From Micromonospora sp. U21 (lineage in GTDB: Bacteria; Actinomycetota; Actinomycetes; Mycobacteriales; Micromonosporaceae): a DNA stretch of 64,000 nucleotides. The position numbers and the translations under genes were made by a program. Position 1 is the first letter of the stretch; every line of letters starts with the position of its first letter. The DNA lies in the NCBI RefSeq assembly GCF_018070045.1, contig NZ_JAGPYK010000018.1, positions 62,001-126,000 of the forward strand. Reading direction: 5' to 3'. This document shows, in pieces, positions 1,906-43,036 of this stretch. The notes under the pieces were generated by a model, which saw only the letters and a program-made list of their open reading frames with translations, ran no database searches and was not told the origin of the DNA.

Positions 1906-1964
1906 TTTCGGTGGGTGGGAGCGCCGCGCTGGGGGCGGATTCGCGGTCGGGGCCGACGACCTGT

Positions 1965-1970
1965 TAGCCT
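1965..1970 (+). promoter_or_regulatory. Possible -10 box for tRNA-Ala
   Basis: TAGCCT fits the actinobacterial TAnnnT -10 consensus and lies about 57 nt before the tRNA. No clear -35 box is visible, so this is a weak call. Confidence 0.35.
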
Positions 1971-2026
1971 TGCTGCCGGCCCGCCCGGTGTAAGCCGGGT
2001 CGGACCGAAGCCGGTTCGCCGGCGGA

Positions 2027-2100
2027 GGGGCTGTGGCGCAGACTGGTAGCGCACCTCGTTCGCATCGAGGGGGTCAGGGGTTCAAATCCCCTCAGCTCCA
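2027..2100 (+). tRNA. tRNA-Ala (CGC)
   Basis: A full cloverleaf can be drawn. The 7-bp acceptor stem GGGGCTG/CAGCTCC contains the G3:U70 wobble pair that identifies alanine tRNAs. The anticodon arm is CCTCG-TTCGCAT-CGAGG with anticodon CGC. The T arm is AGGGG-TTCAAAT-CCCCT and the discriminator base is A (2100). CCA is not encoded. Its 3' end is duplicated at 3731-3757, marking it as an integration target. Confidence 0.97.
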
Positions 2101-2103
2101 CCC
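2077..2103. repeat. Left attachment-site copy (att core)
   Basis: These 27 bp, covering part of the T arm, the 3' acceptor strand and three following Cs, recur identically at 3731-3757. This is what tyrosine-integrase elements leave when they insert in a tRNA 3' end and restore the gene. Confidence 0.85.
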
Positions 2104-2108
2104 AGTTC

Positions 2109-2143
2109 AAAGGCCGTTTCCCGTGGTGGGAGACGGCCTTTTT
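2109..2143 (+). terminator. Rho-independent terminator after tRNA-Ala
   Basis: A 14-bp stem (AAAGGCCGTTTCCC with GGGAGACGGCCTTT, one G:U pair), a five-base loop and a T tract. An almost identical hairpin follows the duplicated tRNA end at 3764, so the integrated DNA carried its own copy of the terminator as well as of the tRNA tail. Confidence 0.9.
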
Positions 2144-2150
2144 CGACTCC

Positions 2151-2172
2151 GTACAGCAGCGAAGTACAGCAG
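2151..2172. repeat. GTACAGCAG direct repeats
   Basis: GTACAGCAG occurs at 2151-2159 and 2164-2172, 13 bp apart, just inside the left end of the element. A third copy is at 2690-2698. Short direct repeats next to an attachment core are typical of arm-type integrase binding sites, so that is the proposed role. Confidence 0.45.
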
Positions 2173-2207
2173 TTGCTGGCCCTGGGCTCGATGGAGCTGA
2201 CCGCGAG

Positions 2208-2652
2208 CTAATCCGGCAGTGGCGTGGGGTGCATCGTCAGGTAGATCAGCCCCTGCTCCTGGTGAACCGTGCAACCCAGTTCGTAGGGCTCGACAGCGCC
2301 GATGCGGAAGATGAGGGTGACTCGATCCTGCACGAATCTCTGTGTGCCGGTGAGCTCCCCGAAGACGTTGGTGATCTCTTGCTGGTCCAACCCTGCCCGT
2401 AGGGGGGAGCCGGAGCGCGTCGGTCATGCTCTGGACCGTTGGCTCCGGCAGGGCGACGAGGTCGATCGCTACCGAACGCGTCACCTCGGGATCCGATTCA
2501 AGACGAAGCCACTGTGTGAAGCCCGACGCCTCCCCGACCCAGCAACGCTCCAGGTACTCCCAGCCGCGAAGCTGCTCAAGGTGCTCCAGCGCTATGAAGT
2601 CGGCCAGGCGAAGCCGACCGAAGGCGTCATGCGAGATCCCCAACGGCTCCAC
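2208..2652 (-). pseudogene. Frameshifted element gene, unknown function
   Basis: Two minus-strand frames join into one 147-aa protein if a single base is removed from the C6 tract (G6 on the plus strand, 2402-2407). The first part runs from a GTG at 2652 (upstream AGAAGGGG, 7 nt spacing) through HLEQLRGWEYLERCWVG to MTDALRLP. The second continues as GLDQQEITNVFGELTGTQRF and ends ...TMHPTPLPD at the TAG at 2208-2210. Composition is that of a soluble globular protein and no family was recognised. The shift may be a true inactivating mutation, phase variation in the homopolymer, or a sequencing error. A TTG at 2703 is an alternative upstream start. Confidence 0.55.
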
Positions 2653-2783
2653 CCTGACGCCCCTTCTGTTGATCGAGACCGGGGCGACAGTACAGCAGCT
2701 CAATGGAACTGCTCGCCGAGCCGGCTGAGTGCCGTCTCGGTCGCCTCCGAGGCGACCTGCGCGTCGATGTTCATGGTCACGGG

Positions 2784-3020
2784 CAGGGAGTGGAAGGTGC
2801 CCTCATCGGGCCAGCCGGCCGCCTCACGCCAGGTCCGCCATATCTGGGACCAGCGTTGGTCATGGATCGGCCGGCCCTGATCGTCGGTGACCAGCAGCGG
2901 GACCAGGCGGTGCTTGGGTTGCTTTCCGCGGTCCGGGGTGCCCGCGGTGATGTCTGGCAGCTCCACCAGGACGGGTGGGTACGCGCGGATTACTGGCGAA
3001 TGCTCAGGGAGGTCGCAGCG
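2784..3020 (-). pseudogene. Tyrosine integrase fragment
   Basis: The minus-strand reading contains GRPIHDQRWSQIWRTWREAA followed by GWPDEGTFHSL, which resembles the stretch of phage/plasmid tyrosine recombinases leading to the catalytic HxLRH box. It breaks off at FHSL, exactly where the second catalytic Arg should follow, and then runs into unrelated sequence. The N-terminal DNA-binding part, the first catalytic Arg and the C-terminal Tyr are all missing. It cannot be active and marks how the surrounding element was inserted. Confidence 0.7.
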
Positions 3021-3236
3021 ACCCGCTGCGACTGCTGAAGAATCAAGAGACAGTACGAGGCTCGGCTGGAGCGCACTGACCGTAACCTTCACTTACGAAG
3101 TTATTGCTATTTCGAGCCGCAACCCGCCCTTGACGTTCACGCTTCCGCCGGCGGCGCGCCATACCAGACGAAGCCCCAGCCGCTTGAGTGGTCAGGCAGG
3201 TCCTCGAAACCGAGTCCTCCGCTGTGCGCAACACGA

Positions 3237-3242
3237 TAATTT
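3237..3242 (+). promoter_or_regulatory. -10 box of micro-ORF (leaderless)
   Basis: TAATTT ends 6 nt before the ATG at 3249, the spacing expected for a leaderless actinobacterial transcript. Confidence 0.45.
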
Positions 3243-3248
3243 TGCGAT

Positions 3249-3404
3249 ATGGGCATCACCGGGGGCATAGCATGCTTCTTTCTGGTCGTCGTCATCGTGG
3301 CGGTCATCGCGTTCTGGGTGGTGCGGTACGGGCTCGGCCCGAAGAAGCCGCCACCACCATCGGACGTTCTGGAGCCGCCGCAGCACCCGCGCGACCGTCG
3401 CTGA
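3249..3404 (+). CDS. 51-aa single-pass membrane micro-protein
   Basis: An ATG at 3249 opens a 51-aa frame. It has a short N-terminus (MGITGG), one strong membrane helix rich in V, I and F (about residues 7-26), a basic turn (RYGLGPKK) and a proline-rich, charged tail ending RDRR. A hydrophobic helix followed by positive charges suggests an N-out, C-in membrane protein. There is no Shine-Dalgarno, but a TAATTT hexamer 6 nt upstream would make a leaderless mRNA. It lies inside the tRNA-Ala element, so it may be element cargo. The function is unknown. Confidence 0.55.
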   Translation: MGITGGIACFFLVVVIVAVIAFWVVRYGLGPKKPPPPSDVLEPPQHPRDRR

Positions 3405-3730
3405 CGCGGCGACCGACGGAAGCGGGGCTTCCGAGTCTCAGCAGCAAGAACAATTGCCCCCGCCGGACGGGCAGGCAACCAGGTTCCACAGCCCCGACCG
3501 ATTGTCGGGGGGCGTGGTGGTTGCGGGACGGAGTCATCCCACCCACCTGCCCAAGGGGTGCCAGCACGGCACCGGGGTGTCAAACGATGGAGCGTGTCTG
3601 ACACCCGCACAGATCCGGCACAACGGGAGCGAAAAGCCGTGTCAAACGTCGACAGACCTTGGCGACGGCTGTGCGGGTGGTGCCGCGGATCCGCACGATT
3701 CAAGATGATCTATCAAATTCGAAGGTGCGC
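3405..3730. other. Non-coding right end of the element
   Basis: No convincing gene is visible. GTGTCAAACG occurs at 3577-3586 and 3639-3648, and GTGTCA at 3577 has an inverted partner TGACAC at 3599-3604. These lie 80-150 bp inside the right attachment copy and may be integrase or excisionase arm sites. Confidence 0.4.
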
Positions 3731-3757
3731 GGGGTTCAAATCCCCTCAGCTCCACCC
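3731..3757. repeat. Right attachment-site copy (att core)
   Basis: An identical 27-bp copy of 2077-2103. Upstream of it there is no tRNA body, so this is the displaced original 3' end of the alanine tRNA gene. Confidence 0.85.
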
Positions 3758-3763
3758 CGGATC

Positions 3764-3797
3764 AAAGGCCGTCTCCCAGTGTGGAGGCGGCCTTTTC
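3764..3797 (+). terminator. Original tRNA-Ala terminator
   Basis: The stem AAAGGCCGTCTCC pairs with GGAGGCGGCCTTTT and closely matches the hairpin at 2109-2143. It is probably the native terminator pushed away from the tRNA by the insertion. Confidence 0.75.
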
Positions 3798-3831
3798 GAT
3801 CTTGTGCCGTCGTGGAGGCGGCGGCCAGGCC

Positions 3832-4257
3832 CTAGTAGTGGTTGTCGATGGGTTGGCGCGCCTCGTCAAACAGCGCCGGGCCCTCGTACCGCACCGGAGG
3901 CAGTGGCGGGGTGGCGGGCTTGACCTCCTCGAACTGTTCGGTGGACAGGGCGTACACCACCCGGCCGAGGCCGGACCGATCGATCGCGGTCGCGCACATC
4001 GGGCAGGGCTGGCAACTGGTGAACATGGTGGTGCCGGCCGCCACGTCGGGGGCGAGTTCCCGGGCGGCCCAGCGGGCCAGCTTCAGCTCCGGGTGGGCGG
4101 TGATGTCCGAGTCGGAAACCACGGTGTTGTGGTCCTCGATCAGGACTGTGCCGTCCGCATCGACAAGCAGCGAGCCGAACGGCCGTTCGCCGGACGCCCC
4201 GGCCTGGCCTGCGATTTCCACGGCACGGCGGAGAAACTTCTCATCGTCGGGGGTCAT
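3832..4257 (-). CDS. CMP/dCMP-type nucleoside deaminase
   Basis: A 141-aa zinc deaminase of the cytidine/guanine/tRNA-adenosine deaminase fold. The zinc and proton-transfer residues are visible as H55-P-E57 and C85-x-x-C88 (CQPCPMC). Most relatives have HAE rather than HPE. The family hydrolyses amino groups of purine or pyrimidine bases or nucleosides; this subgroup is often called guanine or nucleoside deaminase and the substrate cannot be fixed from sequence. Its ATG overlaps the stop of the upstream oxidoreductase by four bases, so the two are translated from one mRNA. Confidence 0.85.
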   Translation of the reverse strand: MTPDDEKFLRRAVEIAGQAGASGERPFGSLLVDADGTVLIEDHNTVVSDSDITAHPELKLARWAARELAPDVAAGTTMFTSCQPCPMCATAIDRSGLGRVVYALSTEQFEEVKPATPPLPPVRYEGPALFDEARQPIDNHY

Positions 4258-5105
4258 CGGTCCTCCTGGGATTTGTGGTGAGCGGCCACGGCCGCGAGTG
4301 TCTGCCAGGCGCGTTCGGGCTGGCGGATCTCGGTCAGGTCGCCGTTGAACGGGTCGAGCACCACCGCCTCCGCGCCGAGCTGGCGCACCTGGTCGATGTC
4401 GGCGATGATCTGCTCGATGGTGCCGATACCGGCGAGCCGGTCCGGGTCGCTGACCGGCTCATGGGTCTCCCGAAGTGCCATGCGCGGCACCAACGCGGGC
4501 ACCGCGCGACCCAGTTCGTCGGCGATGGCCTTGAGCCGCTCGGCCGCCTCCGTCAACCATCCAGGCGTGAACCGCAGCGGGTGCCAGGCGTCACCGAGTC
4601 GGACGGCGCGTCGCATGCCGGCGTCGCTGTTGCCGCCGACCCAGATCGGGACCGCCTCCGTGTCGTAGTCGTCGGTGTCGCGCCAGGCGTCACGCATGGC
4701 GTTCAGGTACTCGTCGGTCAGCGCGCCGCGCCGGCGGTACGGCACGCCGAGCGCCTCGAACTCCTGCCGGGCCCAGCCGACGCCGACGCCGAGGACGAGC
4801 CGGCCGCCGCTGAGCCGGTTGAGGTTCGCCGCCATTCGGGCGGTGAGCAGCGGATGCCGGTACGGGACGATGAGCACGGTGGTGCCCAGCCGGACCCGGC
4901 GGGTCAACGCGGCCAGCCACGACAGCGTGGTGAACGGCTCATAGAACGGCGCGGGATACTGCTCGGCCACGTCCGGGGTCACCGCGATGTGGTCGGAGAC
5001 CATCAGCAGGTCGAAGCCGAGCCCCTCGACCGTCTGCGCCCACCGCCGCAGCATCTCGGGATCGGTGCCCGGGGCGAAGTTGGGTACGTTCACGCCAATC
5101 TGCAC
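4254..5105 (-). CDS. LLM-class F420-dependent oxidoreductase
   Basis: A 283-aa luciferase-like monooxygenase-fold protein. The start (IGVNVPNFAPG), the barrel motif GFDLLMVSDHIAVTPDV and VGVGWARQEFEALGV are characteristic of the actinobacterial TIGR03560/F420-dependent subgroup. Members use coenzyme F420 or FMN to oxidise or reduce small metabolites. A GTG start at 5105 is preceded by TAGCCT and exactly 7 nt, indicating a leaderless mRNA. It forms a two-gene operon with the downstream deaminase. The cofactor is inferred from the family and the substrate is unknown. Confidence 0.85.
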   Translation of the reverse strand: MQIGVNVPNFAPGTDPEMLRRWAQTVEGLGFDLLMVSDHIAVTPDVAEQYPAPFYEPFTTLSWLAALTRRVRLGTTVLIVPYRHPLLTARMAANLNRLSGGRLVLGVGVGWARQEFEALGVPYRRRGALTDEYLNAMRDAWRDTDDYDTEAVPIWVGGNSDAGMRRAVRLGDAWHPLRFTPGWLTEAAERLKAIADELGRAVPALVPRMALRETHEPVSDPDRLAGIGTIEQIIADIDQVRQLGAEAVVLDPFNGDLTEIRQPERAWQTLAAVAAHHKSQEDR

Positions 5106-5112
5106 GGGTTCA

Positions 5113-5118
5113 AGGCTA
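5113..5118 (-). promoter_or_regulatory. -10 box of LLM oxidoreductase (leaderless)
   Basis: TAGCCT on the minus strand, 7 nt before the GTG at 5105. Confidence 0.6.
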
Positions 5119-5137
5119 GTCAGCGTGGAACCGACGC

Positions 5138-5572
5138 GTGAACATCGTTTTCACGGGCCTTGGTGGCTCCTGGCTGAATCCACGCATGATGCGGCTGGAG
5201 GCGACCGGTGTGATCACGGGCTACCGCGCCGAGGTCGACCTGACCAAGGCGGGCTTCGTCGTGCTCGCGGTGGTGCGGCTGGAGTACCCCGGCAGCCGGC
5301 ACGAACCGCTGCGCCGGCTGCTGGAGCGACGGTGGGAGATCCTGGAGTGCCTGCGCACCACCGGTGACGACTGTCACGTGCTGAAGGTCGCCGCGACGTC
5401 CATGGCACACCTCGAACAGATCGTCAACGAACTCGCCGCGTTCGGCAGCACCACCACCAACGTCGTCTACAGCGCCACCCTGCCCTATCGCGGCCCGCGC
5501 CCGAGGCAGCCCCGACCTGCACAGGATGGGCGAGGCCCTCACGCCGGCCCTCGCCGGACACGATCGGGATAA
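5138..5572 (+). pseudogene. Lrp/AsnC regulator lacking its HTH
   Basis: From about residue 17 the frame reads RLEATGVITGYRAEVDLTKA and then a ligand-binding (RAM) domain, including LECLRTTGDDCHVLKVAATS, typical of Lrp/AsnC regulators. In an intact protein about 35-40 residues of helix-turn-helix precede RLEATGVI. Here the frame starts only 48 bp upstream with unrelated residues, and the space back to the neighbouring gene is too small to hold the domain. The gene is therefore a remnant or, less likely, a HTH-free oligomerisation partner. The tail after TLPYRG is Pro/Arg-rich and probably not original. Confidence 0.7.
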
Positions 5573-5577
5573 CCACG

Positions 5578-6336
5578 TCAGGAGAAACGCTCCGTCATCA
5601 CGGGTACCAGGCCGTGCTGTCGCATGACGTTCGTCAACTCGTGCAGGGTTGCGCTCAATGCCGCGGAGGGACCGTCTCTCAACAGGACGGTCACGTCGAG
5701 GCACCAGGCAACGTCTCGACCGACTCGGCGCACGTCCCAGGCGAACTGGTCGTCGCCCTGATCCAGGCGGCCGGCGACGACTGACCCCGGAGAACGCGGT
5801 GTGCCGTCGACCGTCGACTGCCAGAGCGTCCTGAGGCTCGTCACATGATCCTCCCGGAGATCCTTCGCGAAGAGGATGCGGTAGACGCGCCGTTCGTGGA
5901 ACCCGGCGGGTGGGTGCGCGGGGCCGAGCCGCAGCGGCGGAGCGGTGGCGAACGGCTGGTGGTCGCGGAAGTAGGTGCGCAGGACCGCTTCGGGTGGCAA
6001 CTGCCCGCCGCCGAGCTCGCGGTAGACGCTCTCGGCCTTCTTACGGGAGGTGGGAACGACCCGGTCCAGCACTTCGCGATCCCTGCGCAGGCTCCGGCTG
6101 AACGAAGCGGAGCTCCACCAGTCGGCACCTGACGGCGTCCAGCCGGCGCTGTCCAGCCCCGCCGTCGAGAAATCAGCGTGTCGGGTGAACTCCTCGACGA
6201 CGATCCCGTCCACATCGGCGGTCGGACCACGGTCGCCCGGATTCGTCAGGAGCAGGTAGTAATCGAGCGGAAGCCGCCGCTCGGTCGCCTCGACGACCGT
6301 CGTCCCAGGTTCTGTGCGAAGCGGCGCGGTAGGCAT
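5578..6336 (-). CDS. Conserved hypothetical protein
   Basis: A 252-aa soluble protein with no signal peptide or membrane segment. I recognise no family. It starts with a Thr/Pro-rich stretch, then LPLDYYLLLTNPGDRGP, and contains aromatic-rich segments (SGADWWSSASFSRSL). The C-terminal half is marked by FHERRVYRILFAKDLREDHV and an amphipathic end. The ATG at 6336 is preferred over 6345 because GGAGG lies 9 nt before it. It is convergent with the AsnC remnant and divergent from the Gfo/Idh/MocA gene. Codon usage is native, so it is probably a real gene. Confidence 0.65.
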   Translation of the reverse strand: MPTAPLRTEPGTTVVEATERRLPLDYYLLLTNPGDRGPTADVDGIVVEEFTRHADFSTAGLDSAGWTPSGADWWSSASFSRSLRRDREVLDRVVPTSRKKAESVYRELGGGQLPPEAVLRTYFRDHQPFATAPPLRLGPAHPPAGFHERRVYRILFAKDLREDHVTSLRTLWQSTVDGTPRSPGSVVAGRLDQGDDQFAWDVRRVGRDVAWCLDVTVLLRDGPSAALSATLHELTNVMRQHGLVPVMTERFS

Positions 6337-30672: not shown

Positions 30673-30744
30673 TCGGCCGTGGTGTAATTGGCAACACCCG
30701 GGTCTTTGGTACCCGTGTTTCAGGTTCGAACCCTGGCGGCCGAG
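30673..30744 (+). tRNA. tRNA-Gln (TTG)
   Basis: The acceptor stem TCGGCCG/CGGCCGA closes with T1:A72. The anticodon arm is CGGGT-CTTTGGT-ACCCG with anticodon TTG (reads CAA). The T loop is TTCGAAC and the discriminator is G. CCA is not encoded. It lies directly upstream of glmU, as in other Actinobacteria. Confidence 0.95.

Positions 30745-41977: not shown

Positions 41978-43036
<1,059 letters not shown>

Follow-up and report, generated by a model that had tools for sequence, protein, structure and literature searches.

The window, that is, the whole 64,000-nucleotide stretch of the Micromonospora sp. U21 genome that was analysed (assembly G000; 7.47 Mb in 99 contigs), contained a tRNA-Ala(CGC) gene at 2027-2102 on the forward strand and only one other tRNA, a tRNA-Gln at 30673 (ARAGORN). 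The 27 bases at 2077-2103 (+), which hold the 3' end of tRNA-Ala, recurred exactly at 3731-3757 (+), an identity beyond chance expectation within 64 kb, and the base immediately upstream differed between the two copies. As the earlier note had stated, the second copy had no tRNA body; a complete second tRNA upstream of 3731, which that note had named as evidence against an insertion, was absent according to ARAGORN run over the 64-kb window. Direct repeats of the tRNA 3' end with an intact tRNA on one side only are those of a tRNA-targeting element, and 2027-2102 is taken as its restored target site. Elements that enter tRNA genes restore the tRNA; Williams reportedly set out in 2002 that tyrosine-integrase elements supply the missing 3' part. 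Two overlapping repeats lay upstream of the tRNA at 1777-1905, one tandem-like (41 bases, 71%) and the other inverted (32 bases, 72%). Directly behind an acetyltransferase gene, at 700-792, was an inverted repeat whose 21-base arms, 90% complementary, enclosed a loop of 51 bases.

A hairpin of the same type (AAAGGCCGT..GGCCTTT) followed each copy of the tRNA tail, T1 at 2109-2143 (+) and T2 at 3764-3796 (+). The hairpins had been described as almost the same; they were similar, but T1 and T2 were 75% identical over 50 nt, a similarity below that of the tRNA tails, and the wording was somewhat strong. The 55 nt behind the window tRNA folded with -27.2 kcal/mol (z -4.9), and both T1 and T2 would be expected to terminate transcription, the fold having been computed for the T1 stretch.

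From before the tRNA through an integrase C-terminus, window positions 1961-2782 were 90% identical to genome G169, where the ORFs for the integrase and the HTH protein are uninterrupted and, as read from the sequence, followed by a RepSA-like frame. The shared stretch included a pair of direct repeats, GTACAGCAG, behind T1 (2151-2172, +; copies at 2151-2159 and 2164-2172, spacing 13), which are likely arm-type integrase sites, and a cargo gene. The latter, at 2208-2651 (-), had been counted among unrelated small genes; it corresponds to a 147-aa ORF adjoining the G169 integrase but has suffered a frameshift, and the two pieces of it that were scanned had no Pfam match. The C-terminus of a tyrosine integrase at 2700-2782 (-) aligned with the final part of the G169 integrase ORF (405 aa), and a third GTACAGCAG lay beside it at 2690-2698 (+). 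Four copies of GTACAGCAG were found in 64 kb, three of them at this locus, and four were reached in 0 of 100 shuffles; the fourth copy, at 42437-42445 (-), was far from the tRNA. Judged by sequence, the left boundary, consisting of the tRNA, T1, the GTACAGCAG pair and the integrase C-terminus, is the left end of a pSAM2-type actinomycete element, hereafter E. A different contig of the same genome (C36:35903-36034) carried a further sequence related to the C-terminus of the E integrase, with 59% identity.

The integrase fragment seen in the earlier note was real, an ORF at 2700-3092 (-), but proved to be a chimera of two integrases, switching from the E type to a second type, A, at about 2782/2783. 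Positions 2705-2782 matched E integrases, and 2783-2989, or most thereof, was 83-86% like the A integrases of G028, G032, G048 and G040 and 77-79% like those of G059, G013 and G025. The A-type part (2783-3038, -) was internal, corresponding to residues about 260-349 of 418, and was fused in frame to the E C-terminus. A Pfam scan of the fused ORF gave a single match, below the cut-off and to an unrelated family, and a scan of a 51-aa ORF at 3249-3404 (+), with a hydrophobic stretch by eye, gave none. An actinomycete integrative and conjugative element (AICE) has an intact integrase, a replication gene and an FtsK-type Tra; the insert, 1.65 kb long, held integrase fragments only, and is therefore a remnant and not an AICE. 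Phage and plasmid collections returned mostly short tRNA matches and no record covering 80% of the query, the best coverage among the matches listed being 43% for phages and 75% for a Nonomuraea record (75.6% identity).

The 124 nt before the right copy (3607-3730, +) matched the right end of element A in G044, with 77% identity running through the att copy. They carried the site CACAGATCCGGCAC at 3608-3621, which was present at both A ends in G044 and G013 and once in the window, at 3608. The right copy began at the T arm, like the copies in G004, G032, G044, G048 and G013, and corresponds to an A-type attR. A host-type terminator followed the tail at the right ends in G004, G032 and G044, and its first arm was visible in G048, where the stretch ends; the right copy in G013 had no host-type terminator behind it. 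The terminator nearest to T2 was the one at the G004 attR (88%), which also precedes a deaminase block, and all others were at most 83% identical; T2 would be the older terminator, displaced by A. In G032, A contained RepSA (1e-132), FtsK_SpoIIIE and NUDIX together with a 418-aa integrase ORF, a close relative of which, equal in length, matches Phage_integrase in G028; A has thus the components of an AICE. By comparison with these relatives, the right boundary (CACAGATCCGGCAC, the second tRNA tail and T2) is the right end of another pSAM2-type actinomycete element, A. In G059 (L049 1234-1335, L048 3188-3713), the left end was of A type and the tRNA identity of the right copy was longer than in other A elements; it is possibly another mixed stack.

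The locus was compared with 60 genomes of the same genus and 40 of the same order, and the tRNA-Ala region was fetched for 58 of the 60 (all except G010 and G057). Relatives with tRNA-Ala, one terminator and the deaminase operon, and with the insert absent, had been predicted. An empty site was found in G034, with one terminator, no second tail and a relative of the gene at window position 5580 about 50 nt further on, and the order was the same, with longer gaps, in G045, G002, G029 and G030; but the deaminase operon was not the usual next neighbour. In the window, a block of deaminase, luciferase-like and Lrp-like genes (3811-5577) stood close behind tRNA-Ala. Among the 58 relatives it was closely behind tRNA-Ala only in G004 and G054, in both cases behind inserts, and was about 11 kb off in G053; among the fetched copies, those of G047 and G057 had other surroundings. 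The block seems to relocate as a unit. That it was part of a further element was considered and rejected, given its shared location elsewhere in G002, G028 and G040 and the absence of a third tRNA tail from the first 20 kb of the window.

Four readings of the duplicated tail and terminator were weighed. A local duplication that was not site-specific, with the small genes arriving later, has the presence of the repeat as its sole favourable point; the integrase pieces, the element-specific sites on both sides and the occupied and empty sites of relatives speak against it and make it extremely improbable. A single integrative element, as the earlier note had proposed, would by now have decayed, its att segment having extended into the terminator. 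Such an element would fit one small insert flanked by two tRNA tails and two terminators, and single elements of this layout exist, in G179 and as a 1.5-kb remnant in G178. A tyrosine-integrase scar at the tRNA 3' end was confirmed, but its ends match different families: the right copy starts at the T arm and has an A site, E sites lie on the left side, and the integrase ORF fuses two families, so that a single element is quite unlikely. The different ends and the integrases fused near 2782/2783 therefore point to accretion followed by deletion rather than to one element, and the 1.65-kb stretch most likely consists of the joined remains of two distinct conjugative elements that had entered at tRNA-Ala.

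In this history of accretion and deletion, A would have inserted first at the 3' end of tRNA-Ala, so that T2, until then the terminator of the gene, came to lie at the right end of A. E, of pSAM2 type and with a different integrase, would have inserted next at the restored tRNA; with an E attachment site spanning the anticodon loop, the terminator and the GTACAGCAG pair, the tRNA would have gained a new 3' end and terminator T1. The second terminator would thus be present because the E attachment site includes one. A deletion between the two integrase genes would then have taken out the greater part of E and of A, and the remaining 1.65 kb would comprise the left end of E, the in-frame E/A integrase fusion, the right end of A and two terminators. 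The order A, E, deletion would be the simplest history, and this succession, with E bringing T1 to the restored tRNA and the inter-integrase deletion leaving both terminators, is very probable.

More complete E elements were found elsewhere. Among the best 20 loci for the E C-terminus, 8 were beside tRNA-Ala(CGC), 6 beside tRNA-Pro(CGG), and for the other 6 the sequence returned contained no tRNA; open-frame E integrases stood at tRNA-Ala in G179, G164, G169 and others. The G179 element measured 11.46 kb between repeats and contained a tyrosine integrase, HTH_17, RepSA (E 8e-143) and NUDIX. With Phage_integrase, HTH_17 and RepSA at this locus (L127), E has the constitution of a pSAM2-type AICE; no Tra/FtsK was found among 8 scanned ORFs, which were part of the ORFs of the G179 element. 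Between the anticodon loop and the end of the terminator, the two G179 repeats differed only by a 1-base indel. The anticodon loop was also where the repeats of G111, G178 and G014 began; the hairpin loops differed in G111 and in G014, and in G022 identity started a few bases past the start of the anticodon loop. Pairs of GTACAGCA with spacing 13 flanked the G179 and the G111 elements on both sides. The GTACAGCAG and GTACAGCA repeats presumably bind the integrase.

From 84,980 species genomes, the best 80 of 145 confirmed relatives of the E integrase were used; in 65 of these 80 loci, no more than 900 nt separated the integrase end from a tRNA. The 15 loci without such a tRNA were excluded, and addition of the window gave 66. 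The target tRNAs were Ala(CGC), Ala(UGC), Val(CAC), Val(GAC), Pro(CGG), Lys(UUU), Thr(CGU) and Arg(ACG), plus a divergent Val(UAC) group. A GTACAGCA pair (at most 3 mismatches in 16) started 45-54 nt behind the tRNA in 57 of 66 loci, window included, compared with 0 of 6600 shuffles, and was missing at the expected place in 9 of 66. A significant hairpin stood behind the tRNA in 60 of 65 loci (61 of 66 with the window), the five without it all being among the ten tRNA-Lys loci. Hairpin and pair occurred together in 53 of 66 loci, a hand count from two lists. In the seven Val(UAC) loci, with integrases 41-42% identical, the hairpin was present and the pair absent. The window had the same layout, the pair starting 48 nt after 2102 with spacing 13 and the hairpin having a z of -4.9. 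The family-wide order was tRNA, hairpin, paired sites, integrase.

The stretch from the tRNA to the pair had a mean identity of 73% within a target and 59% between targets, in comparisons that are non-independent and among targets that also differ in host genus; the pair stretch, in likewise non-independent comparisons, had 93% within and 92% between. Since the former varies with the target and the latter is constant, the terminator appears to follow the target, and the sites the integrase. The terminator was not duplicated incidentally: an attachment site laid out with a hairpin is usual for the family of the left element.

Terminator T1 could instead be the host's original one, E having recombined downstream of it and carried only arm sites and integrase behind the terminator. 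T1 resembles terminators at sites without a visible E signature: its nearest matches (94% over 50 nt) were in G111, where the copy is E-borne, in G020, which shares the E left-end sequence, and in G016, which had no E signature within the 3.5 kb examined, and it was 90-92% identical to the terminators of G038, G019, G017 and G018, where no E signature was seen. Which of the two terminators is native could not be settled by their similarity alone, and the crossover in the window cannot be placed because the right end of E is deleted. Against T1 as the host's original, the terminator is part of the right copies of E elements, which begin at the anticodon loop.

The tRNA-Pro(CGG) sites bear on the same alternative and give the clearest evidence that the left terminator arrives with the element. 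Eight loci were examined, two of which had no forward tRNA-Pro; among the other six, G059 had no second copy in its contig. In G124, G103 and G121, the repeats ceased to be identical at the tRNA end or a few bases from it. The left hairpin was of the AGAGGGCACATCC-like type of the family, with a variant in G121, and differed from the right hairpin. Repeats that are shared no further than about the tRNA end place the crossover inside the tRNA, so that the left hairpin came with the element. Both hairpins were of the family type in G174 and G130. Of 20 stretches from relatives, 19 contained an intact tRNA-Pro, and the hairpins behind these genes fell into some five sequence types unrelated to one another. 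One of them was the E type, which also stood behind tRNAs where nothing pointed to E, and this speaks for a host origin of T1. The element may have acquired its hairpin from a host terminator, or hosts theirs from the element. On balance, an original host terminator at T1 is unlikely, and E seems to renew not only the tRNA end but also its terminator.

Hairpins were also found behind tRNA-Ala at sites occupied by other elements. Occupied sites sorted into families by the sequence behind the tRNA, and the left ends of classes A, B and C were unrelated to the host terminator; classes A, B, C and N were assigned by eye, and an E signature was present at no fewer than four of the N sites (window, G022, G014, G020). 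Across the 58 relatives and the window (59 genomes), the 55 nt behind the tRNA had z < -2 in 34 of 34 host-type sites, at least four of which carry E, in 8 of 8 B, in 5 of 5 C and in 7 of 12 A; no significant hairpin was found at the remaining 5 of 12 A-type left ends. In control stretches 400 nt further on, z < -2 was reached in 1 of 34 host-type sites, 1 of 8 B, 0 of 5 C and 3 of 12 A. Class B (L035, L065, L066, L083, L092, L094, L097, L101) and class C (L064, L067, L068, L069, L081) had left ends unrelated in sequence, each with its own strong hairpin just behind the tRNA. No second tRNA tail was seen in some class B or C genomes (e.g., G024), in which the hairpin end may be the sole remainder of an element.

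Beyond the restoration of tRNA 3' ends ascribed to Williams (2002), E would also bring a hairpin that resembles a terminator and corresponds to the target tRNA. In the parts available of the sources that describe them, AICEs insert in tRNA 3' ends and have identity segments and arm-type sites (PMC3364876, PMC3218068), and repeats flanking the identity segment are described as like arm-type sites for pACPL and pSAM2 (PMC3364876). The elements at the window locus resemble pSAM2-type AICEs, such as pACPL of Actinoplanes (PMC3364876) and those of the AICE survey (PMC3218068), in the integrase next to att, the HTH xis, RepSA, the tRNA 3'-end target and the flanking repeats, but the window retains only ends and integrase fragments. 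Paired GTACAGCA sites and a terminator between the tRNA and the sites are not described for pACPL or in the AICE survey, within the same portions of these sources (PMC3364876, PMC3218068). In Streptomyces, according to the portion available of PMC9513070, a single tRNA can accumulate several AICEs that differ in their integrases and degenerate into remnants; the window locus is alike in stacking and decay at one tRNA, but its stack seemingly collapsed via an in-frame integrase fusion, leaving a duplicated terminator.

The word terminator was absent from the main text of PMC3218068 and PMC9513070 and appeared once, on another subject, in that of PMC3364876. In titles and abstract beginnings, with few subscription papers covered, no paper was found on terminators as part of AICE attachment sites, which is a weak negative.

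The scar itself is ordinary in kind; the fixed, target-matched terminator in the attachment site is its noteworthy part. It is moderately probable that E represents an actinobacterial element family in which a target-fitted terminator between the core and the paired sites is a fixed part of the attachment site, so that insertion would renew both the tRNA 3' end and the transcription stop and shield the integrase gene from read-through, and that unrelated elements at the same tRNA meet this need with unrelated hairpins. If so, terminator restoration would show what else an insertion must keep to be harmless, and tRNA, hairpin, paired sites and integrase would form a simple attachment-site signature. 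It could also explain the occurrence of unrelated terminator classes at one tRNA gene among related species.
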